A stretch of DNA of 56,730 bases from an uncultured Lachnospiraceae bacterium (GTDB taxonomy: Bacteria > Bacillota > Clostridia > Lachnospirales > Lachnospiraceae). A program made the position numbers and the translations under genes. The DNA lies in NCBI GenBank assembly GCA_902790935.1, contig CADATP010000006.1:1-56730 (forward strand). Direction: 5' to 3'. The notes beneath the pieces are model-generated. The model ran no database searches. It saw only the letters and a program-made list of their open reading frames with translations, and was not told the origin of the DNA. Below, piece after piece: positions 8,065-22,616 of this stretch (position 1 is the first letter of the stretch; every line of letters starts with the position of its first letter).

Positions 8065-8991
8065 TTAACGGCTCTCAAGGGCCTGTCTGATGTCTTCTTT
8101 CATTGCGATAACGGCGGCTCTTGATGCGTCCGCATATCCGCTCTCGCCGTAGGAAGCGTATGCCTCCTGCTGATAAGCGGCGATGATTCCTCTTGAGGAA
8201 TTGATGATGGCTCCGAGTCCATCCTCGTTAAAGAAATGAACAAGGTCGGCGCCCTTACCGCCCTGGGCTCCGTATCCGGGAACGAGGATAAAGGATTTAG
8301 GCATAACCTTTCTTAAAAGCTTTCCCTGCTCGGGATAGGTAGCTCCCACAACTGCTCCGACGTAGCTGTAAGAATCTCCCATAAGCTCTTCGCCCCACTG
8401 TGCCACCTTCTCGCCTACAAGCTCGTAAAGAGGCTTTCCGTCGCAGATACGGTCCTGGAACTCTCCGCTGGAAGGATTTGATGTTTTTACAAGAACGAAG
8501 ATTCCCTTTTTCTCCTCGGCACAAACCTTGATAAAGGGCTTAACACCGTCGGATCCAAGGTAGGGGTTAACGGTAACGAAATCCTCGTCAAATCCGTAGA
8601 AGCTGTTTTTTCCAACGGAAACCTTTCCCACATGTCCTACGGCATAGGCCTCGGATGTGGATCCGATGTCGCCTCGTTTGATATCTCCGATGACAACAAG
8701 TCCCTTCTCCTTGCAGTAATCTACCGTCTTTTTAAATGCCATAAGACCGGGAATTCCAAACTGCTCATACATAGCGATCTGGGGCTTTACCGCGGGAACG
8801 AGGTCGCAGATTGCATCAACTATCCCTTTATTGTACTGCCAGATAGCTTCCGCAGCTCCCTCTAAGGTCTCTCCGAATTCTGCAAATGCCTTTTTCTGTA
8901 TATATTCAGGTACGAATTTCATCATAGGATCAAGTCCTACTACGATAGGTGCCTGGGTTTTTTCGATTTTTGAAATAAGCTTGTTTATCAT
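8065..8991 (-). CDS. pyrF: orotidine 5'-phosphate decarboxylase (type 2)
   Basis: PyrF decarboxylates OMP to UMP, the last step of de novo pyrimidine synthesis. The protein (308 aa) has the catalytic motif VVIGDIKRGDIGSTSEAYA (about residues 98-116) with the Asp-Lys-Asp charge network, VGLDPMM near the N-terminus, and VPGYGAQGG for phosphate binding near residue 234. Its length and motif context fit the longer type 2 subfamily. It lies 45 bases downstream of the TPR lipoprotein gene; other pyr genes are absent from the window. Confidence 0.95.
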   Translation of the reverse strand: MINKLISKIEKTQAPIVVGLDPMMKFVPEYIQKKAFAEFGETLEGAAEAIWQYNKGIVDAICDLVPAVKPQIAMYEQFGIPGLMAFKKTVDYCKEKGLVVIGDIKRGDIGSTSEAYAVGHVGKVSVGKNSFYGFDEDFVTVNPYLGSDGVKPFIKVCAEEKKGIFVLVKTSNPSSGEFQDRICDGKPLYELVGEKVAQWGEELMGDSYSYVGAVVGATYPEQGKLLRKVMPKSFILVPGYGAQGGKGADLVHFFNEDGLGAIINSSRGIIAAYQQEAYASYGESGYADASRAAVIAMKEDIRQALESR

Positions 8992-9036
8992 ATTGATTCC
9001 TTTAATCTGTATGTCTGTATTTGCCGGAATACCGGT

Positions 9037-10077
9037 CTATCTTGTCATAAGAAATGTCTGTTCTCTTAAGGCTTCCTCGTCATTGGGATAACCTGTAAGA
9101 TATGCGCTCATAAGAGCCTGGGCCTTTTTGAATTCTCCGAGATGCTCGTAAGCCACGATCTCGTTGAAGCTAAGGCTTTTCATGCAACTCGTATCACCGG
9201 TCTGCATGCCCGCCTGAATATTTTCAAGCGCTCCCTCGTAGTCCCCCATAGCCATCTTGCAAAGAGCAAGCTGGTTATACACCGGCGCGGATTTAGGGTT
9301 GCGCGCCAGGTAGCTTTCGTAAACATTAGAAGCGTAATTGTACTCTCCCACAGCCTCGTAGGCCTTGCCGAGATACAAAGAACTCTCTGCGTCGGAACCG
9401 TCCGCGCTTCTTGCTTCCTCCAAGGAAACAGCGGCGGTTTGGTATTCACCGAGATAGTAATATATCTTTCCCTCGTTTTTGGCGGTAAGGTTCTTGCCAC
9501 CCCTTTCAAGCGCAGCGCGAAGATACTCCTCGCCGGCCTGCCTGTATCCGCTCTCCGAGAGGGCTCCGTAGATATTGATAATCATCTCTATATCTCCCGG
9601 TGCCATGCCCACTGCCTTGTCGAAATCATCTACCGCAAGAGTATAGGCATCCTGCTTAAGTCTGACTTTTCCGCGAAGATAGTAGGCTGTAGGGTCATCT
9701 CTTAAATCGATTATGGAGGAGTAGGCCTTTTCGGCGTTTTCATACTCTCCCAGCCCGATATAAGCATCAGCCAGATAGTAATTGATATCAAAATCAACAT
9801 CAGCCAGCAGTCCGTCGGATAACCTCAGGGACTCCAAAAAAGCGTCTCTGGCCTCCTCGTAGGACGTTTGTCCGAGATAGGCGATACCTCTTCCTCTTTC
9901 GATAAGCCTTAAGTTCTCTCCGGCCTCCTGTGCCTCGTCAAAAAGAGCCAGCGCATCACTGTACTGCAATGCGCTGATCTGCTGCATTCCCTCTTCAGTT
10001 TTTGAATTAACTCCGCCGCAGCCCGTAAGAGCAAGGCACAGGGCCGCAGCAAGAGTAAAAAGTACAGATTTTTTCAT
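9037..10077 (-). CDS. TPR-repeat lipoprotein
   Basis: The protein (346 aa) starts with a lipoprotein signal peptide and lipobox (LALTGCGG, Cys20), so it should be anchored on the outer face of the membrane. The remainder is a series of about seven tetratricopeptide repeats (for example DALALFDEAQEAGEN, ENAEKAYSSIIDL, TLAVDDFDKAVGMAPG, YEGALENIQAGMQTGD), which usually scaffold protein complexes. Partner unknown. It is 21 bases downstream of mscL and 45 bases upstream of pyrF on the same strand. Confidence 0.88.
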   Translation of the reverse strand: MKKSVLFTLAAALCLALTGCGGVNSKTEEGMQQISALQYSDALALFDEAQEAGENLRLIERGRGIAYLGQTSYEEARDAFLESLRLSDGLLADVDFDINYYLADAYIGLGEYENAEKAYSSIIDLRDDPTAYYLRGKVRLKQDAYTLAVDDFDKAVGMAPGDIEMIINIYGALSESGYRQAGEEYLRAALERGGKNLTAKNEGKIYYYLGEYQTAAVSLEEARSADGSDAESSLYLGKAYEAVGEYNYASNVYESYLARNPKSAPVYNQLALCKMAMGDYEGALENIQAGMQTGDTSCMKSLSFNEIVAYEHLGEFKKAQALMSAYLTGYPNDEEALREQTFLMTR

Positions 10078-10098
10078 AAGCTGAATGCGAAAAAAGAA

Positions 10099-10572
10099 TT
10101 ATAACTGTGAAGTGCAGTGAGGGCAGCGGGTAGCTTCGATATTGATCTCGCTGCGGCAGTAAGGGCAGATCTTGGTTGTAGGTGCAGGTGCTTCCTCGTC
10201 AGCTTTCTTCTTCTCAGCAAGCTTCTTAACAGCGTTGATTCCCTTGATGAGGAAGAAAAGAGCTACTGCAGTGATGAGGAAAGAAATAACCGCAGAAATA
10301 AAGTTTCCGAATGCAAATACAGGATACTCTACGTTTAATCCCATATTTCTCATAAGGGTAACCCAAGGAAGTTTAACAACGAGATTCATTCCGTCAAATC
10401 CGAATCCGCCGAAGATAGTGTTGATAAAAGGATTGAGAATATCATTTACAAGTGAATTGACAATTGCGGTGAAGGCTCCGCCGATGATGATACCGACTGC
10501 CATATCAAGGACATTGCCTCTTGTGATAAACTCTTTAAACTCCTTAAAAATACCCGTTTTCTTTCCGCTCAT
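10099..10572 (-). CDS. mscL: large-conductance mechanosensitive channel with zinc-ribbon tail
   Basis: MscL is a homopentameric membrane channel that opens under osmotic downshock. The protein (157 aa) has the conserved N-terminal segment FKEFITRGNVLDMAVGIII (TM1, about 12-45) and TM2 at about 88-112 (FISAVISFLITAVALFFLI). The tail differs from the usual MscL helical bundle: after a charged linker it ends in a zinc ribbon, CPYC (136-139) and CPHC (150-153). The ATG at 10572 has GGAGG 8 bases upstream. A promoter lies at 10640-10668. It heads the run that includes the TPR lipoprotein, pyrF and the FAD dehydrogenase. Confidence 0.93.
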   Translation of the reverse strand: MSGKKTGIFKEFKEFITRGNVLDMAVGIIIGGAFTAIVNSLVNDILNPFINTIFGGFGFDGMNLVVKLPWVTLMRNMGLNVEYPVFAFGNFISAVISFLITAVALFFLIKGINAVKKLAEKKKADEEAPAPTTKICPYCRSEINIEATRCPHCTSQL

Positions 10573-10639
10573 TTTAATAACCTCCCATACGAATATGAAT
10601 TCATTTTGACTATCCTTCAAAAACCCGATAGCCTTTATA

Positions 10640-10668
10640 ATTCTATCAATTTTCCGTACCTGTATCAA
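10640..10668 (-). promoter_or_regulatory. sigma-A promoter for mscL
   Basis: On the minus strand TTGATA (10668-10663) and TAGAAT (10645-10640) are separated by 17 bases, 68 bases before the mscL ATG. Confidence 0.7.
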
Positions 10669-10709
10669 GGGTTTTTGTTAAAAATAAACCACAAAAAGCG
10701 AATTTCCCC

Positions 10710-10739
10710 TTGACCTTTCGGGCAAGTTTGAAGTATTTT
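10710..10739 (+). promoter_or_regulatory. sigma-A promoter for comEC
   Basis: TTGACC (10710-10715) and TATTTT (10734-10739) are separated by 18 bases, with the comEC ATG 31 bases further on behind GAGGGG. Confidence 0.6.
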
Positions 10740-10769
10740 GTTTAAAGCAATATTTTATGAGGGGAAAAC

Positions 10770-13073
10770 ATGAAAAGACCACTGTTTTATTTGTGTCTTT
10801 TTATCGTGATCATAATCGGGAGTCTGAATATTTTCGGTGTTTTTTCTAAAGAAAAAAGCCCTCTGCTTTCCGGCAGGGACTTCGGTCTGCTTAATATAAG
10901 CGCGCAAATCACGGATAAAGACGAATACTCTTATACTCTTAAATGTATTTCGGTATTGGGAGATACCGGGACTATTTTTGATGCCTTTAAAGGCAAAAAG
11001 CTAAAGCTTCCCTTCTCCGAAACCGTCCGTGACGATCTTTATATAGGTCAAAGCATTGTACTGACCGGAAAATTTAAAGCGTATGACCGGGCTTCTAATC
11101 CCGGTGAATTTGACAAAAGAAAATACTATCTTGAAAAGGATATATACGGAAAAATAACCGGCGGTGATATCAAAAAGGTCTCCGGAAAAAAGAGTTTTAT
11201 TCGCGGAAATCTGTATGAATTAAGGCTTGTTCTAAAGAAAAGGATCTACAGCGTCTTTCCCGAAAAGGAGGCTTCCGTTCTATGCGACCTTACCGTCGGA
11301 GATAAAGCGGGCGTTCTACCCGAGATCAAGGATCTCTATACCCGAAACGGTATAGCTCATATTCTTTCAATCTCAAATCTGCACATATCCATATTGGGGC
11401 TCGGACTTTACGAGGCCCTTAAAAGACTGGGTGCGAAAGTACCCGCAGCTGCCGCCGGCACGGCATTTTTTCTTGTTTTCTATGCCTTCCTTAGTGGCAT
11501 GAGCATCCCCGCCTTAAGATCTGTTTTGATGTTTCTCATCGCGCTTTTGGGAGACGTCCTTAAAAGAACACCCGATAAGCTGACTTCACTCGCACTTGTA
11601 GCCGTTATTATGCTGATTCCGGACCCGGCGAATCTTTTTTCCTGCGGATTTTTACTCTCCTTCGGCTCGGTTTGCGGAATCATCCTTTTGTATCCCGCTC
11701 TGAAGCTTTGCGCAAAAGACATAGAAAGCCGCATTCCCTACTCTTTAAGGCTTAGAAAGGATTCTCGCGTAAAAAGATTTTTAGATTTTATCTGTCAGTC
11801 CCTTTTGATCTCTCTTTCCATCAGCCTTACCACGCTGCCTGTTATGCTGTATTATTTCTTTGAAGTTCCCATCTACAGCGTGCTTTTGAATCTGTTTATA
11901 GTTCCTCTCTTATCTGCCCTTTTGATCAGCGCATTTCTCGCTATGATCATCCCCGGCGGCGGCTTTCTCGGGACTATAGCCTATCTGGTACTTAAGTTTT
12001 ATGAATTTATCTGCGGCGTATTCGACAAGCTTCCCGGCAGGAGCTGGAATCCGGGGCGTGAAAACATACTATCCATTGTCATTTATTACTTTGTCTGGCT
12101 TCTCGTCATTTTGTACCCCAAAATGCGAAATGACAAAATTTTAGACAAAAAGCTAAAAGGCAGGGCGAAAAGATATTTTAAGTTTGTCCCCGCTTTAGCC
12201 TTTTTGCTTCCCTTAATAATGGCTTACCCAAGGCTCAGGCCCAATACGCTTATAATGCTTGATGTAGGGCAGGGGGATTCTTTTATATATCTGTCCGACG
12301 CCCGAGAAGTCTTTACCTTTGACGGAGGATCCTCTTCCTACAAAGAGGTGGGAAAAAATGTCATTAAGCCGGCCCTTAAGTATTACGGCCTTTCAGATAT
12401 AAAGGCAGCCTTTATCTCTCACCCTGACGAGGACCATTTTAACGGAATCTCAGAAATAGTTAAAAACCGGGACGCCTGGGGGATTGATATAAAAAGCCTT
12501 GTACTTCCCTACCCGGTAAAAGAGAAACCCGGAGAGGTACAAGACCTTATAGAAAGCTGCTCGAAAGCGTCTTATAAAAAGAGTATTCCTGTCGCTTATA
12601 TTTCTTTGGGAGATGAGTTTGAAAGCGGGCGAAATAAATTTACCTGTCTTCACCCGGACAAAGATAAAGAGCTTACTTCAACTAATGAATTTTCGGAGTG
12701 TTTCTACGTCAGTATCTCAGACAAGGTCAGTCTCATACTTACAGGAGATGTAGAAGGAGATGGGGAAATTCGGTTCAAAGAAAGCCTCAGGGCCTACCTT
12801 TCAGAAAGCGGGGCCAATTTGCCGGATAAGATTACAATCCTAAAGGTAGCCCACCACGGCTCAAAATACTCGACTGAAAATTCATTTCTTGATATCGCGG
12901 ATCCCGATATCGCCCTTATAAGCGCCGGCCTTGGCAACCGCTACGGCCATCCTCATAAAGAGCTGACAAGGAGGCTCGAAGAGCGGGGAATAAGTATCCT
13001 TGGAACGCAAGAAAACGGAGCAGTCACCATAAAGGTGCTGCCCCGCAGAATTGTCATTGACTCAATTTTTTAA
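10770..13073 (+). CDS. comEC: ComEC/Rec2 DNA-uptake channel
   Basis: ComEC is the polytopic membrane channel that passes single-stranded DNA into the cell during transformation. The protein (767 aa) has an N-terminal TM and OB-like region (about 1-150), the Competence membrane domain with many helices (about 190-480), and a C-terminal metallo-beta-lactamase-like domain (about 490-760). The last carries LDVGQGDSFIYLSD, SHPDEDHFNG, VAHHGSKYST and the final GNRYGHPHKE. GAGGGG precedes the ATG. It is transcribed alone, and its stop overlaps the stop of the convergent MATE gene by 4 bases. No other competence genes lie nearby. Confidence 0.93.
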   Translation: MKRPLFYLCLFIVIIIGSLNIFGVFSKEKSPLLSGRDFGLLNISAQITDKDEYSYTLKCISVLGDTGTIFDAFKGKKLKLPFSETVRDDLYIGQSIVLTGKFKAYDRASNPGEFDKRKYYLEKDIYGKITGGDIKKVSGKKSFIRGNLYELRLVLKKRIYSVFPEKEASVLCDLTVGDKAGVLPEIKDLYTRNGIAHILSISNLHISILGLGLYEALKRLGAKVPAAAAGTAFFLVFYAFLSGMSIPALRSVLMFLIALLGDVLKRTPDKLTSLALVAVIMLIPDPANLFSCGFLLSFGSVCGIILLYPALKLCAKDIESRIPYSLRLRKDSRVKRFLDFICQSLLISLSISLTTLPVMLYYFFEVPIYSVLLNLFIVPLLSALLISAFLAMIIPGGGFLGTIAYLVLKFYEFICGVFDKLPGRSWNPGRENILSIVIYYFVWLLVILYPKMRNDKILDKKLKGRAKRYFKFVPALAFLLPLIMAYPRLRPNTLIMLDVGQGDSFIYLSDAREVFTFDGGSSSYKEVGKNVIKPALKYYGLSDIKAAFISHPDEDHFNGISEIVKNRDAWGIDIKSLVLPYPVKEKPGEVQDLIESCSKASYKKSIPVAYISLGDEFESGRNKFTCLHPDKDKELTSTNEFSECFYVSISDKVSLILTGDVEGDGEIRFKESLRAYLSESGANLPDKITILKVAHHGSKYSTENSFLDIADPDIALISAGLGNRYGHPHKELTRRLEERGISILGTQENGAVTIKVLPRRIVIDSIF

Positions 13074-14407
13074 GCACGTTCACCGCTCTTTGCAAAATTG
13101 TGTATCCAGTCTGCACTGAAATAGTATATGAGAAATACTATTGCACTTGCGCTCCAGGTAAGAGGATAAGCCCAGAAAATAACATTAACAACAGGGATTA
13201 TCCGAACGATTATCGTGATGTATGTAATACGTAACAGACACCAGCTTGAGAGCATAACGATCATCGGAACCTTCGTTTTTCCCGCTCCCCTTAAGATTCC
13301 CGCAAGACAGTGGTTCAAGGCGAGGAGGCAGTAAAAGAGGCTCTCCGTCCTTGCCTGTCTTGTTCCTACAGCAATTACCTCGGCCTCGCTTGAAAACATC
13401 CGAAGGAGGATCGGCGCCAGCAAAAATACAAGTACACCTATAAGTTCGGCGCAGGAGACACTGATAATACTTCCGATGCGGGCTCCCTTTTTAACTCTGT
13501 CGTACTGGCCCGCGCCAAGGTTCTGGCTGACAAATGTGGTAAGAGCCATTGACATGCAGGTGATGGGCAAAAATACAAAGCCTTCCAGCTTAAAGTAGCT
13601 TCCGCAGCCTGCCATGGCAACATCTCCAAAGGAGTTGATATTTGACTGAACCACAACGTTTCCGATGGCGATGACGCTGTTTTGAATACCCGTTGGAAAT
13701 CCGATCTTTAATTCCTTACTCAAGGTTTCTCTGTCTATCTTAAGCTTCCTAATATAGATTCTGTGGGGTCCGTCTACTCTTGTAAGGCGGATAAAAGCAA
13801 GAAGGGCGCTGACAAACTGCGCGATGATGGTAGCCGCAGCGGCACCTCCGATCCCGAATCCAAGGAATTTGACAAACAAAATATCAAGAACCGTATTGAT
13901 AACCGTACTGACTATAAGATAGTACAGGGGATGCTTTGAATCGCCTACAGCCTGGAATACGCCACAGCAAGCGTTATACATGACATTTCCAAGTCCGCCG
14001 AGGAAGTATATCCTGAAATATAAAACGGAGCTGGGCATAACGTTTTCCGGAGTCCCCATCCATCCAAGGATGACAGGGGTTGCGAAAAATCCCACAACCG
14101 TAAGAGCTACGCCCATTATAAGGGCAAAGGTGATACCGGTATGGGTCGCTGTACTGACGCCTTCAAAGTCCTTGGCGCCGTATCTTTTGCCGATTATAAC
14201 GCCGCCTCCCATAAAGAGTCCGGTTATAAATCCGACCATTAAAAAGATAAGGCTTCCCGCTGTACTGACGGCGGCAAGCGCTTCTTTTCCGAGTACATTT
14301 CCAACTACCACAGAGTCAACAACGTTGTAAAGCTGCTGCAAGAGCTGACCCACAAAAAGCGGAATCGCAAATGTAATAAGTTTTTTTGTAATAGAACCTT
14401 CTGTCAT
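13070..14407 (-). CDS. MATE-family multidrug/cation antiporter
   Basis: This is a polytopic transporter (445 aa, about 12 membrane helices) with the MatE duplication: residues 1-220 and 230-440 each contain one MatE repeat, starting from ITKKLITFAIPLFVGQLLQQLYNVVDSVVVG (here split after IPLFVG). MATE proteins export cationic drugs or metabolites using Na+ or H+ gradients; the substrate is not predictable. It is monocistronic and converges on comEC with a 4-base overlap of stop codons and no terminator between them. A 29-bp palindromic repeat (14490-14518) lies upstream. Confidence 0.9.
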   Translation of the reverse strand: MTEGSITKKLITFAIPLFVGQLLQQLYNVVDSVVVGNVLGKEALAAVSTAGSLIFLMVGFITGLFMGGGVIIGKRYGAKDFEGVSTATHTGITFALIMGVALTVVGFFATPVILGWMGTPENVMPSSVLYFRIYFLGGLGNVMYNACCGVFQAVGDSKHPLYYLIVSTVINTVLDILFVKFLGFGIGGAAAATIIAQFVSALLAFIRLTRVDGPHRIYIRKLKIDRETLSKELKIGFPTGIQNSVIAIGNVVVQSNINSFGDVAMAGCGSYFKLEGFVFLPITCMSMALTTFVSQNLGAGQYDRVKKGARIGSIISVSCAELIGVLVFLLAPILLRMFSSEAEVIAVGTRQARTESLFYCLLALNHCLAGILRGAGKTKVPMIVMLSSWCLLRITYITIIVRIIPVVNVIFWAYPLTWSASAIVFLIYYFSADWIHNFAKSGERA

Positions 14408-14489
14408 AATTGTTATTCCTTTTTATTTTAGACAACATTATCATTTTACGCCTAAAATAAAACTTTGCAATAACAATATATTTCACAGA

Positions 14490-14518
14490 TGACCCCCCAA
14501 CTCCGTCCCCGGGTGTCA
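14490..14518 (-). repeat. 29-bp REP-like palindromic repeat, copy 3
   Basis: A single unit on the minus strand starting TGACACCCGGGGACGGAG and ending GGGGTCA, in the 117-bp gap between the lysR stop and the MATE start. Confidence 0.8.
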
Positions 14519-14524
14519 TTATGA

Positions 14525-15430
14525 TCAGCCCGCGGCAAGTTTTTTCAGTTCATTTATATAGAGGTTTCCGAAGTCACTTATTATGTGATTTTTCTTTGTG
14601 ATATAACCTATGGTTAGCGTGTCTTCCTCTTTGAGCTTGATCGAAACAAACACATCCTTTACCGCTATAGAGTCCGTCATTCCGCCGGTTCCGATGGCAA
14701 AGCCTCCAAGCATAGTCAGCACCTCACAGGAAGTCGCCCTGTCCCCTGTTTTTATGACCTTTTTAAAATGGTAGCCGGACAAAGCCTCCTCAGAAAGATA
14801 AAACTCGCTCTCACCGGTTTGGTCAAAAATAACACAGGGGTAATCCTGTAACTGGTCCAAAGAAAGTTCCTTTTCCCCTGAAAGCGGATGGTTTTTACTG
14901 AGATAAACGTATGTTGAGCAAACCTTTAAAGGATAAAAATCAAGATCGTACCCCTTTAGAAGCTTACCGATGATATTCTTGTTGCTTTCAGCATAAGATA
15001 GCACACCTATCTCGCTTTTATAGTCCCGCACATTCTGAAGAACCTCTTCCGTCTTTGTCTCCTTGATAAGATAAGAGAAAGCATCTGAACTTCTCTTTTT
15101 GATGGAATTGACAAAGGCATGTACGGCAAAGACGTAGTGCTGCATGGATATTGAGTAGTAATCCTTCTCGGGGTCGAGCTTTAAATACTTATGCTCCACA
15201 ATCTCATACTGGCCGACTGCCTGTTTTGCCGATTCGAGAAACTCTCTTCCCGCCTCGGTAAGGTTTATACCCTTATTCGTACGTTCAAAAATCTTTATTC
15301 CAAGTTCTTCCTCGAGATCCCTTACGGATGTAGACAGGGCGGGCTGCGAAACGTAAAGTTTGCTTGCCGCTTCCCTCATCGAAGATGACATTGAAATAAC
15401 CACGATGTATTTAAGCTGTAGGATCGTCAT
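14525..15430 (-). CDS. LysR-family transcriptional regulator
   Basis: The protein (301 aa) has an N-terminal winged helix (about 1-60, with MREAASKLYVSQPALSTSVR and LEEELGIKIFERTNKGINLT) and a LysR co-inducer domain (about 90-295). It is the last gene of the sulfonate-type ABC cluster on the same strand. It has its own promoter (15472-15499) and an AGGGGG ribosome site. LysR proteins of the CysB/Cbl group commonly control sulfur assimilation, so it is likely the regulator of this cluster; that role is inferred from position. Confidence 0.88.
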   Translation of the reverse strand: MTILQLKYIVVISMSSSMREAASKLYVSQPALSTSVRDLEEELGIKIFERTNKGINLTEAGREFLESAKQAVGQYEIVEHKYLKLDPEKDYYSISMQHYVFAVHAFVNSIKKRSSDAFSYLIKETKTEEVLQNVRDYKSEIGVLSYAESNKNIIGKLLKGYDLDFYPLKVCSTYVYLSKNHPLSGEKELSLDQLQDYPCVIFDQTGESEFYLSEEALSGYHFKKVIKTGDRATSCEVLTMLGGFAIGTGGMTDSIAVKDVFVSIKLKEEDTLTIGYITKKNHIISDFGNLYINELKKLAAG

Positions 15431-15471
15431 ATAGAGCCCCCTGAATAAAGTGAATTTACTCTTACTACACT

Positions 15472-15499
15472 ATAATAGCAAGATGATAAGAATCCTCAA
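15472..15499 (-). promoter_or_regulatory. promoter for lysR
   Basis: On the minus strand TTGAGG (15499-15494) and TATTAT (15477-15472) are spaced 16 bases, 42 bases before the lysR ATG. The regulator can therefore be made independently of the ABC operon. Confidence 0.55.
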
Positions 15500-15549
15500 A
15501 ATACTCAGTTTCTATAGCTTGCGATAGGATGGGATTATACTTATAGGGC

Positions 15550-16350
15550 TTAAATATAATACTCCGGCTCTTTGCGCTTAACATCATTGAAGAATTCTTT
15601 GTAAATCTTTGACCTGATTGATGCAAACTCGGCGGAGTTTCTATCCCTTTCCCTGGGAAGGTCCACATTAAATACCTTCCTCAAGGTACCGGGACGGCTG
15701 GAGAGCACCACCACCTTATCGCCCAGATAAATTGCCTCATCAATGTCATGAGTTACCAAAACCATTGTTTTCTTTTCAGCTTCCCATATTCTAAGAATTT
15801 CGTTTTGCATGTTGATCCTCGTTATGGCATCGAGAGCGCCAAAAGGCTCGTCGAGCAAAAGCACATCCGGATTATTGATAAGTCCTCTCGCAATGCTGAC
15901 TCTCTGTTGCATTCCTCCGGACAGCTGCTTTGGTATAGCCTTTTCAAATCCCTTTAACCCAACAAGTTCTATGAGGCTGTTCACCAATTTCTTTTTTGCA
16001 TATTTATCAAGTTTCTTGCTTTTTGAATGAGTGATACCAAATTCTATATTCTTTTCAACGTTGGACCAAGGGAAAAGCCTTGATTCCTGAAATACCATTC
16101 CGGTTTTCAAGGTGGGCTGCGTAACCTTTTGACCACCAACGGTAATTTCGCCCTCCTCCACGGTTTCAAGCCCGGATATCATACGAAGAAGTGTACTTTT
16201 TCCGCATCCGCTGGCGCCGACGATACAGATAAACTCGCCCTTTTTGAACTCAAGGTTAATGTCCTTCAAGATATCAACCTTCTTTTTATCTATGACGAAT
16301 TTTTTATTCACTCCGTGTATTTCAATTTGATTTGTATTATCATTACTCAT
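15550..16350 (-). CDS. ssuB: sulfonate/nitrate/taurine-type ABC transporter ATP-binding protein
   Basis: This is the cytoplasmic ATPase (266 aa) of an SsuABC/TauABC-class importer. Walker A is GASGCGKST (about 42-50), the signature is LSGGMQQRVSIARGL (about 144-158), Walker B is VLLLDEPFGALD (about 163-174), and the H-loop lies in VLVTHDIDEA. It is third in the transporter set, 28 bases after the permease. The subfamily also includes pyrimidine (ThiZ) and nitrate importers, so the substrate assignment rests on context. Confidence 0.9.
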   Translation of the reverse strand: MSNDNTNQIEIHGVNKKFVIDKKKVDILKDINLEFKKGEFICIVGASGCGKSTLLRMISGLETVEEGEITVGGQKVTQPTLKTGMVFQESRLFPWSNVEKNIEFGITHSKSKKLDKYAKKKLVNSLIELVGLKGFEKAIPKQLSGGMQQRVSIARGLINNPDVLLLDEPFGALDAITRINMQNEILRIWEAEKKTMVLVTHDIDEAIYLGDKVVVLSSRPGTLRKVFNVDLPRERDRNSAEFASIRSKIYKEFFNDVKRKEPEYYI

Positions 16351-16378
16351 AACGCTCTTCCCTTTCCGTATTAGGGAT

Positions 16379-17140
16379 TTAACTCCAATAAATCAATCTC
16401 TTTTCAAGCCACTTGACCACAAGATCCAGTGCAAGTCCCACGACGCCCAGAGTCAGTAATCCGACAAACATAACCGCCGGTTGTGACATTTCTCTGGCAT
16501 ATTGAATCATATAACCGATTCCCCTCACAGAAGCTATCATCTCTGCTGCAATTACGCTTCTCCATGCTCCGCTTATACCGAGCCTGATACCTGTAAACAG
16601 TGAAGGCAGTGCAGCCGGAATGACTATTTTTGATAAAACAACAAATCGGTTTTTCTGAAGTATTCTTGCGACTTCAAGCAGTTTAGCATCGGTTCCGCTG
16701 ATTCCTCTCTGAGTGTTTAAAAGGACCGACCAGAAAGTTCCAAGGGAAATAATTATTATCTTGGATTCTTCTCCGATACCGCACCATAAAATAAAGAGTG
16801 GAATCAGACCTATGGTAGGTATTGATCTTAAGACGCTGAAGATTACCGTCACAAGATCGTCCACCTTTTTAAACAATCCCGTTAATACTCCGATAGCCAC
16901 ACCTGCTACCGTTCCCACGGTAAAACCAATGGATACTCTGAAAAGGCTGGCACTGAATTGTTCCCAATATTTTCCGGTTACAATAAGGGATTTAAATGCC
17001 TCAATAACCTTCTTGGGAGATGGCATTATGGCGCCATTTATCCAGCCTTTATCAGTTACAACCTGCCAAATTGTCAGCAGTAAAATCGGAGATATAATTA
17101 TGATGACATAATCTACTATGCCTTTCTTACTTCTGTTCAC
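16379..17140 (-). CDS. ssuC: sulfonate/nitrate/taurine-type ABC transporter permease
   Basis: The protein (253 aa) has about six membrane helices and the BPD_transp_1 EAA-like loop (about residues 140-180, ending GAWRSVIAAEMIAS). The N-terminus VDYVIIIISPILLLTIWQ is a membrane helix. It pairs with the ATPase downstream and the binding protein 24 bases upstream. It is the membrane pore of an importer for a small sulfonate-like or related molecule. Confidence 0.9.
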   Translation of the reverse strand: MNRSKKGIVDYVIIIISPILLLTIWQVVTDKGWINGAIMPSPKKVIEAFKSLIVTGKYWEQFSASLFRVSIGFTVGTVAGVAIGVLTGLFKKVDDLVTVIFSVLRSIPTIGLIPLFILWCGIGEESKIIIISLGTFWSVLLNTQRGISGTDAKLLEVARILQKNRFVVLSKIVIPAALPSLFTGIRLGISGAWRSVIAAEMIASVRGIGYMIQYAREMSQPAVMFVGLLTLGVVGLALDLVVKWLEKRLIYWS

Positions 17141-17164
17141 GACTTCCTCCCTGTATTTTCGGAT

Positions 17165-18184
17165 TTATTTATTGTATAATCCTGCGTTCTCAAGGAATGA
17201 AGTGTTAACAAGATCCTTTACATCAAACTTTGATGTGATGTTTCCGTTATCGTAAGCAAACTGAATTGAATCTTCAAGACCTCCCTCAAGATTTTCCTGC
17301 CATCCGATAACCCAATCTCTGGTTTCAAAATATGTTCTTACTCCCTCGATATCGCTACCGTTAAAATCAGATACAATCTTTACAGCCTCGTCAGGATTCT
17401 CAAGTCCCCACTTTGTAGCCTTATCAAGAACCTTAAGAACTCTGCTGACAATCTCGGGATTCTTCTTTGCAAAATCTCCCTTTGCCAAAATAAATACAGG
17501 CTGAACATTGTAATCCTTGTTTGTTACGATGAGCTTTCCTCCGGTCTGTTCAAGTGTGGGTTCAAAGGGCTGCGCTGCAATTACAGTATCAAGATCACCT
17601 GCTACGATAGCGGCAATTCCTTCTGCTGAACCGATATTAACAAGAGTTACGTCGGACTCTTTTAATCCTTCCTTTTCCAGAATCTTAAGAATGAGCTGGT
17701 GTGTGGTTGTTCCTGCTCTGTATCCAAGTCTTTTTCCTTTAAGGTCTTTTGTTGATTCAACTCCCGAATCAGGGCCTGCAATAAGGGCATATGCGTTGTC
17801 TGAAAGCCATAAAGTGGAAATAATCTGAACATCAATACCGTTTGCAAATCCCTGTATAGCAGGTGTGTCTCCGTAAGCTGCAAAGTCAAGCTCACCGGCT
17901 GTTATTGCTTCGTTAATGGCGGGACCGTTCTCAAAAACAAGCACTTCAAAGTTGTAGTCGTCTCCAAACTCTTCGGCAAAAAATCCTTTTTCCAAAGCTA
18001 TCTTTGCGGGAATATAATTTGCCTGATCCGCAAATCTGATTGTTCTTGCAGTATTAAGCTCTCCGGAATTCTCAGCGCTGACATTTCCTGCAGAGCAGCC
18101 TGTTAAAGCTCCTGCCGCAAGTGTTAAAGCAGCTACAATTCCTGTCAACTTTCCAAATAAAGCCTTATTCTTCAAATTTTTCAT
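17165..18184 (-). CDS. ssuA: sulfonate-type ABC transporter substrate-binding lipoprotein
   Basis: The protein (339 aa) has a lipoprotein signal peptide with lipobox ALTGC (Cys about 30). The mature part is an SsuA/NMT1-like binding protein: IRFADQANYIPAKIALEKG, then GELDFAAYGDTPAIQG, GKRLGYRAGTTTHQLILKI and VAGDLDTVIAAQPFEP. It should capture the substrate outside the cell and deliver it to the permease. It starts 12 bases after the PPOX-fold gene ends, so the enzyme genes and transporter are probably one operon. The ligand (sulfonate, taurine, other) cannot be read from sequence. Confidence 0.9.
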   Translation of the reverse strand: MKNLKNKALFGKLTGIVAALTLAAGALTGCSAGNVSAENSGELNTARTIRFADQANYIPAKIALEKGFFAEEFGDDYNFEVLVFENGPAINEAITAGELDFAAYGDTPAIQGFANGIDVQIISTLWLSDNAYALIAGPDSGVESTKDLKGKRLGYRAGTTTHQLILKILEKEGLKESDVTLVNIGSAEGIAAIVAGDLDTVIAAQPFEPTLEQTGGKLIVTNKDYNVQPVFILAKGDFAKKNPEIVSRVLKVLDKATKWGLENPDEAVKIVSDFNGSDIEGVRTYFETRDWVIGWQENLEGGLEDSIQFAYDNGNITSKFDVKDLVNTSFLENAGLYNK

Positions 18185-18196
18185 AATTTTCTCTCC

Positions 18197-18685
18197 TTAA
18201 TTTGCGTATCTGTACTCGTCTTTTGCAAGTCTGTCTACGTGAATCTCATATGGATTTGATGTCTCAAGGACCTCTCTTCTTGCTAAGAATGTCTGCTCTG
18301 AAGTGCTCTCAACATCGATAAGCCAAATGGATGAAAGGTCGATATCTTTGCCCTTTTTCTCCTGCACAGCAACATATGCATCAATAAACTCTTTACCAGA
18401 ATTTATAGTCTTATAAGCTTTTCCCTTTATGAGATAGCTCTTCCTGTCGGGAGTAATGATGTTTATTGCAATATACTTGTCAAACCATATGGAATATACA
18501 AGATTTTTCTGGGTCTGTGACTTTTCCAAAAGTTCCAGAAATCTTATCCTGCCGTTTTCATCAACAGTAAGAGACCCCTTGGGAGTAACATGTGGAATTC
18601 CCTCTTTGCTGATTGTTGCCACAACCTTAATGGAATCAGGATTGTTTATGGCATCTATAATTTCTTTGCTAAGCTGATTACTCAT
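18197..18685 (-). CDS. PPOX-class FMN-binding split-barrel protein
   Basis: The protein (162 aa) has the pyridoxamine-phosphate-oxidase-like split-barrel pattern: an N-terminal helix, then IKVVATISKEGIPHVTPKGS (about 19-38), DENGRIRFLEL and KYIAINIITPDRKSYLIKG. The fold binds FMN or F420 as a dimer and serves in flavin reductases, hydrogenases and small oxidoreductases. It lies between a radical SAM gene (19 bases upstream) and ssuA (12 bases downstream). In an anaerobe it could supply electrons or act on the imported compound in place of the SsuE/SsuD flavin pair. That role is hypothesis. Confidence 0.8.
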   Translation of the reverse strand: MSNQLSKEIIDAINNPDSIKVVATISKEGIPHVTPKGSLTVDENGRIRFLELLEKSQTQKNLVYSIWFDKYIAINIITPDRKSYLIKGKAYKTINSGKEFIDAYVAVQEKKGKDIDLSSIWLIDVESTSEQTFLARREVLETSNPYEIHVDRLAKDEYRYAN

Positions 18686-18704
18686 TGTTCCTATCCTTTC
18701 TTCT

Positions 18705-19958
18705 TTAAATTCTGTCGAGATTTAAATTGGGATGCATTCCGCACTTTCTGTAGCTGTCCATGTCTGCGCTGAGACCATACTTTTTATTAATCTCATACAA
18801 TCCCTTGGTAAGCTGAACATAGTAATCCAGCGAAGGATTAAGCTGTCCTCTAAAAATTGAATTGTCTCCCACATGCCAAATATCATGCTTAAGAAGTACG
18901 CCGTGAGAAGCCATTTCCTCAGCGGTTTCAAAGTCCTTTTTAAGGGCTTCTGCTTCTGTTTTAAAGCCATTGGGTGAAGCTAGCTCAACTCCTGAAACAA
19001 GTCCTGTGTCAACATATCCCTTTCCGAATACATCAACCGCGTCAAATAGTCTTTTCTTCCACTCCTCGTGTGAAATAGCTTTTGCCTTACCCGGGCAAAT
19101 CCACTGATAAAGTTCATCGTCAAATACTTCAAGGTCTGTGGTGTAACTTGTAAGTCCTGTCTGATCGTAAAGCCTTTGAAGCTGTTCCTTGTCAAACGCC
19201 GTTGTATTAATCTGGCTGGGCCACTTTTTTGTCTTAAAGACCGTTCCCATTGCCTGAAGTACATCAATGTAAATCTGAAGTTCATCTTCGCAGAGCTTTG
19301 GGCCGCTTAAAATGCTTCCGCCCGTAAGGATTACACCAACAAATCTTCCGGGTTCCTTAACAAGCTCTCTCATTGTCTCTTCAACATCCTGAAGATTAAT
19401 CAAGTCGTCAGGCTTACCATGATACTTAACTCCGCTTGAACCAATCGAGCAGTACTTGCATCCATCCTTGGCACACTCCCAGAAATGGCAGAATTTACTG
19501 GGCTGAAGAGAATATCTCTGAGGTCTTGCCTGAATAACATTCTTCATTGGAGTTCCGCGACTGGTAAACTTATCAAAGAACTTGGGCTTTTCCCAGAAAG
19601 AAACCTCTTCATATACCTTGCCCTGATCCACAAGAACGATTTTGTTGTCTACAACATCAACCAGATAAGGATCTCTTGCGGTCTTAGTCGTATCCTCTGA
19701 AACTACCAAATGGCTGCCGTCTCTTAATGTTAGGGATGCAGGAACCTTTCTGAATGTACCGTCTCTAAGCTTATATTCTGTGACCTGATGAATCGAATCA
19801 TCCAGTCTTTCAAGAGCTGCATCTGTATAGAAAACTCCACGTCTGTGAGCGTCTATTTCCAATATGGCGATGGGCGGAAGCTCCGGATATTTCTTTATGA
19901 TTTCCTCAATGCTCTCCTCCTTTTTTCTCCATTCCTGATCGTACTGTAATCCTGCCAT
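18705..19958 (-). CDS. radical SAM protein with atypical cysteine motif
   Basis: The protein (417 aa) has about 150 N-terminal residues of unknown fold, then a radical SAM-like core. The cysteines are C157, C162, C167 and C170, giving CX4CX4CX2C instead of the standard CX3CX2C; KYCSIGSSG follows the last pair. LTGGSIL (211-217) fits the SAM-contacting GGE position. The later part, with LEVFDDELYQWICPGK and GYVDTGLVSGVE, resembles biotin synthase/ThiH-like TIM barrels. GGAGGG overlaps the end of metK and the ATG follows its stop by 3 bases, so it is tightly coupled to SAM synthesis. Downstream are an FMN-binding protein and a sulfonate-type importer. Function is unknown; I infer a role in anaerobic organosulfur conversion. 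Confidence 0.82.
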   Translation of the reverse strand: MAGLQYDQEWRKKEESIEEIIKKYPELPPIAILEIDAHRRGVFYTDAALERLDDSIHQVTEYKLRDGTFRKVPASLTLRDGSHLVVSEDTTKTARDPYLVDVVDNKIVLVDQGKVYEEVSFWEKPKFFDKFTSRGTPMKNVIQARPQRYSLQPSKFCHFWECAKDGCKYCSIGSSGVKYHGKPDDLINLQDVEETMRELVKEPGRFVGVILTGGSILSGPKLCEDELQIYIDVLQAMGTVFKTKKWPSQINTTAFDKEQLQRLYDQTGLTSYTTDLEVFDDELYQWICPGKAKAISHEEWKKRLFDAVDVFGKGYVDTGLVSGVELASPNGFKTEAEALKKDFETAEEMASHGVLLKHDIWHVGDNSIFRGQLNPSLDYYVQLTKGLYEINKKYGLSADMDSYRKCGMHPNLNLDRI

Positions 19959-19961
19959 TGG

Positions 19962-21152
19962 TTATCCCTCCATAAGTGCTGACCTAATTTCCTCCACCTT
20001 GTTCAAATGCTCCCAAGTAAGGTCAATGTCAGTTCTTCCAAAATGTCCGTATGCTGCTGTCTTTTTATAAATAGGTTTTCTCAAATCCAGCGCATCAATA
20101 ATTGCCGCAGGTCTTAAATCGAACACCTTCTCAATTACTTCCTCGATTTTTTCATCGCTGTACTTTCCGGTTCCGAAAGTCTCTACAGTTATTGAAACCG
20201 GCTTTGCTACTCCGATTGCATACGCGAGTTCTACCTCGATCTTGTCAGCAGCTCCCGCAGCCACCAGGTTTTTAGCAACCCATCTTGCAGCGTATGCTGC
20301 AGATCTGTCAACCTTTGTGGGGTCCTTTCCTGAAAATGCTCCGCCTCCGTGTCTTCCCGTTCCGCCATATGTATCAACAATGATCTTTCTTCCTGTAAGT
20401 CCCGAATCACCCTGTGGTCCTCCGATAACAAATCTTCCTGTGGGATTTACGTAGTAAATCGTCTCGTCATCTAAAAGCTCCGCAGGGATAACCGGCTTAA
20501 TTACGAACTCGATAATATCTCTTCTTATTCTGTCAAGGGAAACTTCTTCTGAGTGCTGAGTTGAAATAACAATTGTGTGTACTCTCTTTACCGTCTTTCC
20601 GTCATCTCCGAATTCCACGGTAACCTGGCTCTTTCCATCCGGTCTGAGATATGGAAGTGTTCCCTCTTTTCTTACCCTTGCAAGCTGTCTTGTAAGTCTG
20701 TGTGCAAAAGAAATTGCGGGTGGAAGGTATTCCGGCGTCTCATTGGTTGCGTATCCAAAAATGATTCCTTGGTCTCCTGCACCTGTACCATAATCTTTTG
20801 TCTCTCCCTCTACCTTTGATTCAAACGCCTTATCTACACCAAGTGCGATGTCTGCTGACTGCTCATCGATTGAAGTAAGTACAGCAATTGATCTTGCGTT
20901 ATAACCGTCTACGTTATTGACATAGCCGATTTCCTCGATGGTATCTCTTGCGATCTTCGCAATGTCTACATAAGCCTTTGTAGTGATCTCTCCAACGATA
21001 AGAGCGATTCCTGTAGCTACGGTGGTTTCAGCGGCTACTCTTGAATAGGGATCCTGCTCAAGGAGTGCATCTAAGATAGCATCCGAAATCTGATCCGCGA
21101 TCTTGTCGGGGTGTCCTTCCGTAACTGATTCTGATGTAAATAACTTTCCCAT
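19962..21152 (-). CDS. metK: S-adenosylmethionine synthetase
   Basis: MetK condenses methionine and ATP to S-adenosylmethionine. The protein (396 aa, usual length) has [20 protein letters not shown] at the N-terminus, the signature [12 protein letters not shown] (about 121-132) and [16 protein letters not shown] (about 270-285). It is the first gene of the radical SAM/PPOX/ABC cluster, which suggests that SAM supply and the downstream radical SAM enzyme are coupled. A promoter lies at 21210-21238. The untranslated leader is only about 50 bases, too short for an S-box riboswitch. Confidence 0.97.
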
Positions 21153-21209
21153 TTTCCTTTACCTTTCTTTTCCGGCGTTTTTCTTCCGCCTTATTTAATC
21201 GTTTTTAAG

Positions 21210-21238
21210 ATACTATCACCGGGAGCACATCCTGAAAA
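21210..21238 (-). promoter_or_regulatory. promoter for metK cluster with candidate operator upstream
   Basis: On the minus strand TTTTCA (21238-21233) and TAGTAT (21215-21210) are spaced 17 bases. Immediately upstream lies the palindrome TTACGTAA (21239-21246), overlapping the near-palindrome TAAGCCTTA (21244-21252). A LysR-type activator could bind there. Confidence 0.45.
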
Positions 21239-21275
21239 TTACGTAAGCCTTATTGTCAGTGATAAAAAAAACTTA

Positions 21276-21304
21276 TGACACAGAGGGACGGGGATAGGGG
21301 GTCA
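21276..21304 (+). repeat. 29-bp REP-like palindromic repeat, copy 4
   Basis: The unit starts TGACACAGAGGGACGGGG and ends GGGGGTCA. It is the first of two direct copies separated by 3 bases, in the divergent gap between metK and the lipoprotein gene, just upstream of the metK promoter. Confidence 0.85.
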
Positions 21305-21307
21305 CAA

Positions 21308-21336
21308 TGACACAGGGGGACGGGGGTGGGGTGTCA
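21308..21336 (+). repeat. 29-bp REP-like palindromic repeat, copy 5
   Basis: The unit starts TGACACAGGGGGACGGGG and ends GGGTGTCA, in direct orientation 3 bases after copy 4. Confidence 0.85.
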
Positions 21337-22570: not shown

Positions 22571-22587
22571 GTTATTTCAGTTTAGGA

Positions 22588-22616
22588 TGACACCCCGGGA
22601 CGGGGGTGGGGGGTCA
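22588..22616 (+). repeat. 29-bp REP-like palindromic repeat, copy 6
   Basis: A single unit starting TGACACCCCGGGACGGGG and ending GGGGGTCA, located 17 bases after the lipoprotein terminator. Confidence 0.82.

Follow-up and report, generated by a model that had tools for sequence, protein, structure and literature searches.

How fermenting anaerobes use the sulfur of sulfonates without oxygen is reportedly an old question that goes back to growth studies on Clostridium in the late 1990s. The alkanesulfonate monooxygenase SsuD depends on FMNH2 and O2. In PMC11423573, Xsc, Isl and Isr are counted as the oxygen-independent desulfurizing enzymes. Isr, i.e., IsrBHDK from Rhodobacter capsulatus, combines a nitrogenase-like enzyme with a radical S-adenosylmethionine (SAM) protein and is needed for the anaerobic assimilation of isethionate; its component IsrB is described as having the radical SAM motif in common with NifB, and the role of IsrB is stated as unclear, C-S cleavage and activation of its partner both being considered (PMC11423573). 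Here, we describe an operon in DNA from an uncultured Lachnospiraceae bacterium (assembly GCA_902790935.1, contig CADATP010000006.1, positions 1 to 56,730; this whole stretch is called the window), which encodes a SAM synthase (MetK), a variant radical SAM enzyme (rSAM), a PPOX or split-barrel protein and an importer of the SsuABC type. It is probably an oxygen-independent module for the assimilation of sulfonate sulfur, akin to but distinct from Isr. That rSAM, PPOX and an Ssu importer together serve the anaerobic use of organosulfur compounds was the core idea of an earlier note, drawn up from the sequence alone. Comparative support for it, from the gene set and its conservation, co-occurrence, cassette exchange and downstream genes, is strong and stops short of substrate and chemistry, which are predictions. 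The note's list of anaerobic routes was incomplete in that Isr was omitted (PMC11423573). In the literature searched, most of it outside subscription journals, we found no description of the rSAM-PPOX pair.

The genes metK, rSAM, PPOX, ssuA, ssuC and ssuB are arranged head to tail on the minus strand, and a gene for a LysR-type regulator comes last. Intergenic gaps from metK to ssuB amount to 3, 19, 12, 24 and 28 bases, followed by 119 bases to the LysR gene. Gene order, the single strand, the gaps of 3-28 bases and the LysR gene behind them had all been given in the earlier note and agree fully with the coordinates and family matches:

19962..21152, minus strand: metK, SAM synthase (MetK TIGR01034, 581.8 bits, cut-off 309.4)
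18705..19958, minus strand: variant radical SAM enzyme (rSAM) of clade A (NF045502 'variant_rSAM', 170.8 bits, cut-off 125; PF04055, 34.3 bits, cut-off 29.5)
18197..18685, minus strand: PPOX / split-barrel partner protein (PF01243 only 18.2 bits, cut-off 28.1; split-barrel fold by model)
17165..18184, minus strand: substrate-binding protein of the SsuA family, bearing a lipobox-like LTGC (TIGR01728, 192.5 bits, cut-off 163.5)
16379..17140, minus strand: SsuC-like permease with a GTG start (PF00528 over cut-off; in NCBIfam SsuC matches best, with 165 bits, under the cut-off of 347)
15550..16350, minus strand: SsuB-like ABC ATPase (PF00005 over cut-off, 126 bits; no NCBIfam equivalog above cut-off among the matches listed)
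14525..15430, minus strand: LysR-type protein, a possible regulator (PF00126 helix-turn-helix over cut-off; substrate domain slightly short of its own, 25.4 against 28)
15544..19996, minus strand: exchangeable cassette rSAM-PPOX-SsuABC, flanked by conserved metK and LysR and swapped in a related locus, L083

A weak scan of the coding strand found no terminator-like site between metK and ssuB (6 sites in the region vs 8.7 in shuffles). A short GC-rich repeat (CCCCGTCCC..TGTGTCAT) occurs in the window at 64-143, 14501-14519, 21275-21325 and 22587-22605; six matches with at most 3 mismatches compare with 0.04 expected, and copies flank the operon on both sides.

With PF04055 over its cut-off and a radical SAM barrel in the structural model, rSAM belongs to the radical SAM superfamily. 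The canonical cluster motif CX3CX2C is not present; the protein has CX9CX2C instead, with C157, C167 and C170 as cluster cysteines, and the variant class is modeled by NCBI as NF045502. Among clade-A copies, CX8CX2C (47) and CX9CX2C (46) together account for 93 of 96, and the alignment columns of C157, C167, C170, C288 and C406 hold cysteine in 96/96. H409 is invariant in all 67 aligned rSAMs. A second group of variant enzymes, clade B, shows CX8CX2C in 20/20 copies. The AlphaFold2 (AF2) model of the window protein has a predicted local distance difference test score (pLDDT) of 90, and the nearest solved folds are lipoyl synthase (LipA), ThiH and also BioB, with template modeling (TM) scores of about 0.4 by query length. 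Compared with plasmid sequences, clade-A rSAM gave 2 matches, from Streptomyces, at 25% identity, and clade-B rSAM one, from Agrobacterium, at 27%. At the rSAM-PPOX junction of one relative (L022, 10757-10852) lies a GA-cis RNA (RF02987).

The partner protein had been described in the earlier note as an FMN-type PPOX. The split-barrel fold holds in the AF2 model (pLDDT 93), which matches HupZ with a Foldseek E-value of ~1e-8 and FMN-binding split-barrel proteins with 1e-6. The FMN label is tentative, with PF01243 under its cut-off and HupZ, which we take to be a haem protein, as the nearest solved structure. W67, Y104, H149 and D151 are invariant across 60 aligned PPOX proteins.

Co-occurrence supports a functional unit. 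In what follows, L denotes neighborhood loci of relatives and G genomes of the family sample, with names such as G000 serving as labels. The family sample comprised 299 genomes, the window's own included; clade A was delimited at 42% identity or more, and the PPOX subfamily profile was applied at E 1e-12. Clade-A rSAM was found in 6/299 genomes and the PPOX subfamily in exactly the same six, all 7 copies lying less than 0.6 kb from rSAM (Fisher P ~1e-12). Two further family genomes carry an rSAM at 38-39% identity beside a much diverged split-barrel-like gene (tblastn E 1e-9 to 1e-10). The named loci are the 80 best among 390 confirmed ones, a set biased to close relatives. They contain 92 rSAM copies, for 88 of which PPOX is present within 2.5 kb on the same strand (50/51 where a 5-kb flank is available on both sides). 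These counts include four PPOX genes recovered by tblastn after open reading frame (ORF) calling had missed PPOX beside five well-flanked rSAM genes. Within 5 kb on either strand, 77 of the 92 copies have at least one Ssu component and 64 have all three, and metK is near 42. Had the pair occurred mostly apart from sulfur genes, the earlier note would have had to be abandoned on its own terms; for the window's clade, the 77 copies with an Ssu component say otherwise. In a phylum sample of 398 genomes, four other genomes with close clade-A matches were found, all with PPOX and SsuABC. The samples overlap: L069 and L075 come from two of these four genomes, and L035, L043, L078 and L099 from genomes already counted in the family sample. 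Altogether, the named loci stem from Bacillota, Spirochaetota, Synergistota, Chlorobiota, Pseudomonadota, Myxococcota and Thermodesulfobacteriota, with carriers including Lachnospiraceae, Treponema, Clostridium, Synergistaceae, Chlorobiaceae, Pseudomonadota and Paenibacillus; Clostridium tyrobutyricum is a culturable example.

MetK likewise appears to be dedicated to the system. The operon protein is only 64.5% identical to the other MetK of the same genome (contig C42). When 34 MetKs from related loci were compared with it, 26 proved 78-97% identical, among them three from Treponema at 84%, while one reached 73% and seven 61-66%, so that the system-linked lineage is not universal. With an E-value limit of 1e-190, which here means at least 74% identity, the lineage is present in 8/299 family genomes, and all 8 copies reside less than 4 kb from a variant rSAM, which is of clade A in G000, G002, G014 and G122 and of clade B in G029, G153, G240 and G295. 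One clade-A genome, G083, is without the lineage. G116, listed as the same genus, gave no match to rSAM, the sulfite reductase domain, PPOX or the MetK lineage. The earlier suggestion that rSAM is fed by its own SAM synthase has thus gained comparative support, and MetK may well serve this purpose.

A natural exchange delimits the unit further. L083 matches the window DNA with 92.0% identity over 8158-15544, with 91.6% over 19996-21276 and with 82-93% further out. The interval in between, which opens at the very end of metK and closes shortly behind ssuB, contains its own rSAM, PPOX, SsuA, SsuC and SsuB genes in a different order, and the five encoded proteins are only 34-59% identical to those of the window, SsuA being the most diverged; the flanking MetK and LysR proteins share 97-98% identity with the window's. 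This block replacement means that the five genes behave as one exchangeable unit, and substrate specificity presumably changes along with the cassette. The LysR gene, counted as part of the unit in the earlier note, is 97-98% identical and in place in the near relatives L032 and L083 and is not linked beyond them. With its cluster (c44) in only four loci (the window, L032, L083 and L068), LysR was ruled out as a core part.

For the importer, the solved structures closest to the window binding protein are SsuA (E 6e-22) and TauA, with yeast THI5 (E 2e-9) and a pyrimidine-precursor binder (E 2e-8) further off. In SsuA of Xanthomonas citri, the sulfonate is coordinated by Q36, G68, G86 and S141 (PMC3839906). 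Gly87, Gly105 and Thr160 of the window protein align with Gly68, Gly86 and Ser141, and the exchange of serine for threonine retains the hydroxyl group; Gln54 was placed opposite Gln36 by eye, as this residue lies beyond the printed alignment. The sulfonate-ligand residues are thus predicted to be in place, in a protein that also exceeds the TIGR01728 cut-off. Metal or selenium transport of the SaoX type was considered as well and discarded: SaoA is the best NCBIfam match of the ATPase, with 251.5 bits against a cut-off of 360. Most SaoX-like proteins are linked to metals (PMC13188914).

Genes for the further use of sulfite lie elsewhere in the genome. Contig C7 (L142, 4913-16466) encodes an AsrC-like sulfite reductase, TusA, ThiS, ThiF, JAB and an O-acetylhomoserine sulfhydrylase (OAHS), along with a PF13241 protein, presumably of the siroheme type, and a second, more distant Ssu-like transporter. 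A FecCD-type transporter adjoins the PF13241 gene. The genome, which is 82.7% complete, gave no match to PAPS reductase/CysD (PF01507), to ATP sulfurylase (PF01747) or to nitrogenase-like proteins (PF00148). With a sulfite reductase encoded but no sulfate activation found, another source of sulfite seems likely, e.g., sulfonates. The NIR_SIR domain, which also covers nitrite reductases, was detected in 6/6 clade-A genomes vs 147/299 overall (P 0.013), in 8/8 when the two sister genomes are added (P 0.003) and in 11/13 family genomes matched by the rSAM search (P 0.008). At least one of OAHS, AsrC, ThiF, JAB, TusA and ThiS resides in the same locus for 18 of 83 clade-A loci, and an AsrC-like gene does so for seven.

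In the operon itself, family scans of the proteins revealed no SsuD or SsuE (a genome-wide search for SsuD was not made) and no glycyl radical enzyme (such lyases, and likewise TauD and Xsc, were not searched for genome-wide). A luciferase-like cluster occurs in six related loci, L081, L087, L097, L098, L107 and L108, from lineages that presumably can respire oxygen. Four of these were tested against the cut-off for alkanesulfonate monooxygenase (SsuD); L081, L087 and L108 pass, and L098 fails (344 of 518). In L081 and L087, SsuA-SsuD-SsuC-SsuB genes precede rSAM-PPOX with one opposite-strand ORF in between, and L087 also has an FMN reductase; in L108, genes for SsuD, SsuA and an SsuC-like protein diverge from the pair. 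It looks as if one import system were served by paired enzymes, some O2-dependent and others O2-independent. L098 combines the pair and metK with an SsuD-like gene and an ABC transporter closest to carbohydrate types, all below cut-off, a context that hints at a sulfosugar as the substrate.

The same genes bear on the question of what is imported and released. The substrate could be an organosulfur compound other than a sulfonate (a sulfone, sulfinate, sulfoxide or methylthio compound), or the product could be methanethiol or sulfide instead of sulfite. The family of the binding protein is broad, the sulfite reductase of the window genome is encoded at another locus, and the methylthioalkane reductase Mar releases methanethiol (PMC11423573). 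Nevertheless, we regard this as improbable in view of the NIR_SIR domain in every clade-A family genome, the AsrC-like genes within the loci themselves and SsuD over its cut-off in the neighborhood of three of them.

We therefore propose a scheme in which a sulfonate, or a close organosulfur oxyanion, would be imported by SsuABC. The rSAM protein would bind a [4Fe-4S] cluster via C157, C167 and C170 and cleave SAM, the 5'-deoxyadenosyl radical would activate the substrate, the C-S bond would break and sulfite would leave. The split-barrel protein, with a flavin or possibly a haem, would supply or take up the balancing electrons. One SAM would be spent per turnover and returned as methionine, which the dedicated MetK could reload, so that no sulfur would be lost on balance. 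Sulfite would then pass to the AsrC-like sulfite reductase, and the set of TusA, ThiS, ThiF, JAB and OAHS at the other locus would lead on to homocysteine.

Several observations weigh against a sulfonate module. The substrate class, C-S cleavage, the roles of rSAM and PPOX, the use of SAM and the sulfite route are all deduced from gene content, and the absences listed above are provisional at 82.7% completeness. PPOX possibly carries haem instead of FMN. No Ssu component lies within 5 kb of 15/92 rSAM copies (Chlorobiaceae, Paenibacillaceae, where L098 has the carbohydrate-type ABC transporter, L084 and short contigs). Weaker rSAM matches in the phylum sample stand beside SsuABC in only one of seven cases (L132), and among the weaker family loci Ssu genes are found in L025, L026 and L027 but not in L028 or L030, an ATPase-like gene being all that L029 offers. 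There is no Rfam match in the window and hence no riboswitch, including none for thiamine pyrophosphate (TPP), and riboswitch control of the operon was accordingly dismissed. The scan for SAM riboswitches covered 42 clade-A sources, counting the window and with L126 a repeat of L075, and 3 of them were positive. In L084, such riboswitches flank the pair and precede OAHS and MetH-like genes; in L054 the position is directly behind the pair, in L069 farther downstream. None directly precedes the pair, but those beside it in L054 and L084 count in favor of the sulfonate reading. Binders of nitrate, taurine and pyrimidine precursors belong to or resemble the SsuA family. Finally, sister pairs with 38-39% identity (L023, 5225-10617; L024, 8363-13850) have a TPP riboswitch upstream in 2/2 cases and genes for PF09819, which we take to be of the YkoE type, an ABC ATPase and CbiQ-type proteins next to them, in L023 together with a YKOF-family gene. 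With thiamine-type transport under TPP riboswitches in the sister clade, the pair is not inherently a desulfonase, and in L023 and L024 it possibly constitutes a new enzyme pair for thiamine salvage.

The thiamine-like substrate that the earlier note had offered as an alternative therefore suits the sister clade. Transferred to the window, it would mean that the transporter brings in a thiamine or pyrimidine-like compound for the pair to convert and that the SsuA-like protein is a binder of the ThiY/NMT1 type, and Pfam NMT1 (THI5-like) does span this protein. However, a TPP riboswitch was found in 0/42 clade-A sources scanned, window included, the neighbors are sulfur genes (SsuD, sulfite reductase, OAHS), and by E-value the binding protein resembles SsuA far more closely than THI5 or the pyrimidine-precursor binder. 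For the window, a thiamine or pyrimidine substrate is thus unlikely, and we continue to favor sulfonate-sulfur assimilation.

Relatives of the operon with clade-B enzymes lead back to Isr. In the nitrogenase-like genes of the neighborhood loci, the cysteine signature given for IsrD and IsrK in PMC11423573, a single cysteine in the D-like and three in the K-like subunit, is found in 8/8 genes each. Eight loci have D-like as well as K-like genes; seven of them contain clade-B rSAM, while L041 is a short contig with a clade-A enzyme, and none of the called genes in the seven such loci checked encodes a CX3CX2C protein. Synteny, the cysteine signature and the lack of a CX3CX2C protein suggest that clade-B rSAM equals IsrB; this identification was not adopted, the IsrB sequence not being among those compared. 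The motif that IsrB is said to share with NifB may speak against it. A search of plasmids with the D-like protein yielded 72 records, and among the 20 matches listed, 18 are nifE of Rhizobium. Plasmid pTS2 of Treponema saccharophilum (L154) carries four nitrogenase-component-1 genes, nifH, a NifB-like radical SAM gene and an ABC transporter. In Chlorobiaceae, superclusters of about 20 kb (L050, L060 and L106) combine the rSAM-PPOX pair with up to three clade-B rSAMs as well as nitrogenase genes of the Isr-like kind and HGD/BadF-type genes. In L153 (33-8157), a clade-B rSAM near the contig end is accompanied by a system-type metK, a 978-aa BadF/HGD-like protein and an Ssu-like transporter. This BadF/HGD-like protein is perhaps a third type of reductase partner.

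Such neighborhoods invite the explanation that rSAM and PPOX are accessory proteins that activate another enzyme or build its cofactor, as has been considered for IsrB, whose role is unclear (PMC11423573); clade-B enzymes beside Isr-like, nitrogenase-like genes would fit this. Yet no PF00148 protein was found in the window genome, no gene cluster besides transporter and metK is present in more than 13 loci, and several diverged rSAMs in one locus (L043, L049, L051, L053 and L069) are better explained by substrate specificity than by a shared maturase. We consider an accessory role very unlikely. A broader idea is speculative and rather doubtful, albeit worth stating: variant-motif rSAMs could be the C-S-breaking catalysts of a broad class of anaerobic sulfonate systems, with nitrogenase-like (Isr), HGD/BadF-type and PPOX proteins as interchangeable electron partners. 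The window operon would then be a minimal form that needs no ATP-driven reductase, and the actual desulfonase of Isr would be IsrB.

If sulfonate-sulfur assimilation is indeed the function, the operon offers a compact two-protein candidate for O2-free release of sulfur from sulfonates in fermenting anaerobes, and the natural cassette swap would predict substrate specificity. It would also bear on a question that PMC11423573 leaves unanswered, namely which of two roles the radical SAM protein has, C-S cleavage or activation of its partner.

Among known systems, SsuEADCB for aerobic alkanesulfonate use has the same type of importer as the window, but SsuD is absent from the window operon and the rSAM-PPOX pair stands in its place. 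The isethionate sulfite-lyase IslAB resembles the proposed scheme in its radical-mediated anaerobic C-S cleavage giving sulfite (PMC6453916, PMC8473560) and differs in being a glycyl radical enzyme, none of which is encoded in the operon. MarBHDK also supplies sulfur by anaerobic C-S cleavage, but it is nitrogenase-like and its product is methanethiol (PMC11423573). Clade-B rSAMs (NCBIfam NF045502 variant_rSAM core) share the unusual CX8-9CX2C motif and are frequently found beside SsuABC and the same MetK lineage, whereas their identity to clade A is only ~25% and in the loci seen they mostly reside beside Isr-like or HGD/BadF-type genes. The closest parallel is Isr. The window does encode a radical SAM protein and an Ssu importer (the IsrB sequence itself was not compared), but Isr requires the nitrogenase-like IsrHDK, for which the window has PPOX and metK instead, with PF00148 not found in the 82.7% complete genome; lacking these defining subunits, the window operon is not a member of Isr. 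What would unite the two is anaerobic, assimilatory use of a radical SAM protein together with an SsuCAB importer, sulfite as the predicted product, and overlapping phyla, with Bacillota, Spirochaeta, Pseudomonadota and Myxococcota named for Isr (PMC11423573). At the level of the pathway, the window operon would work like Isr.

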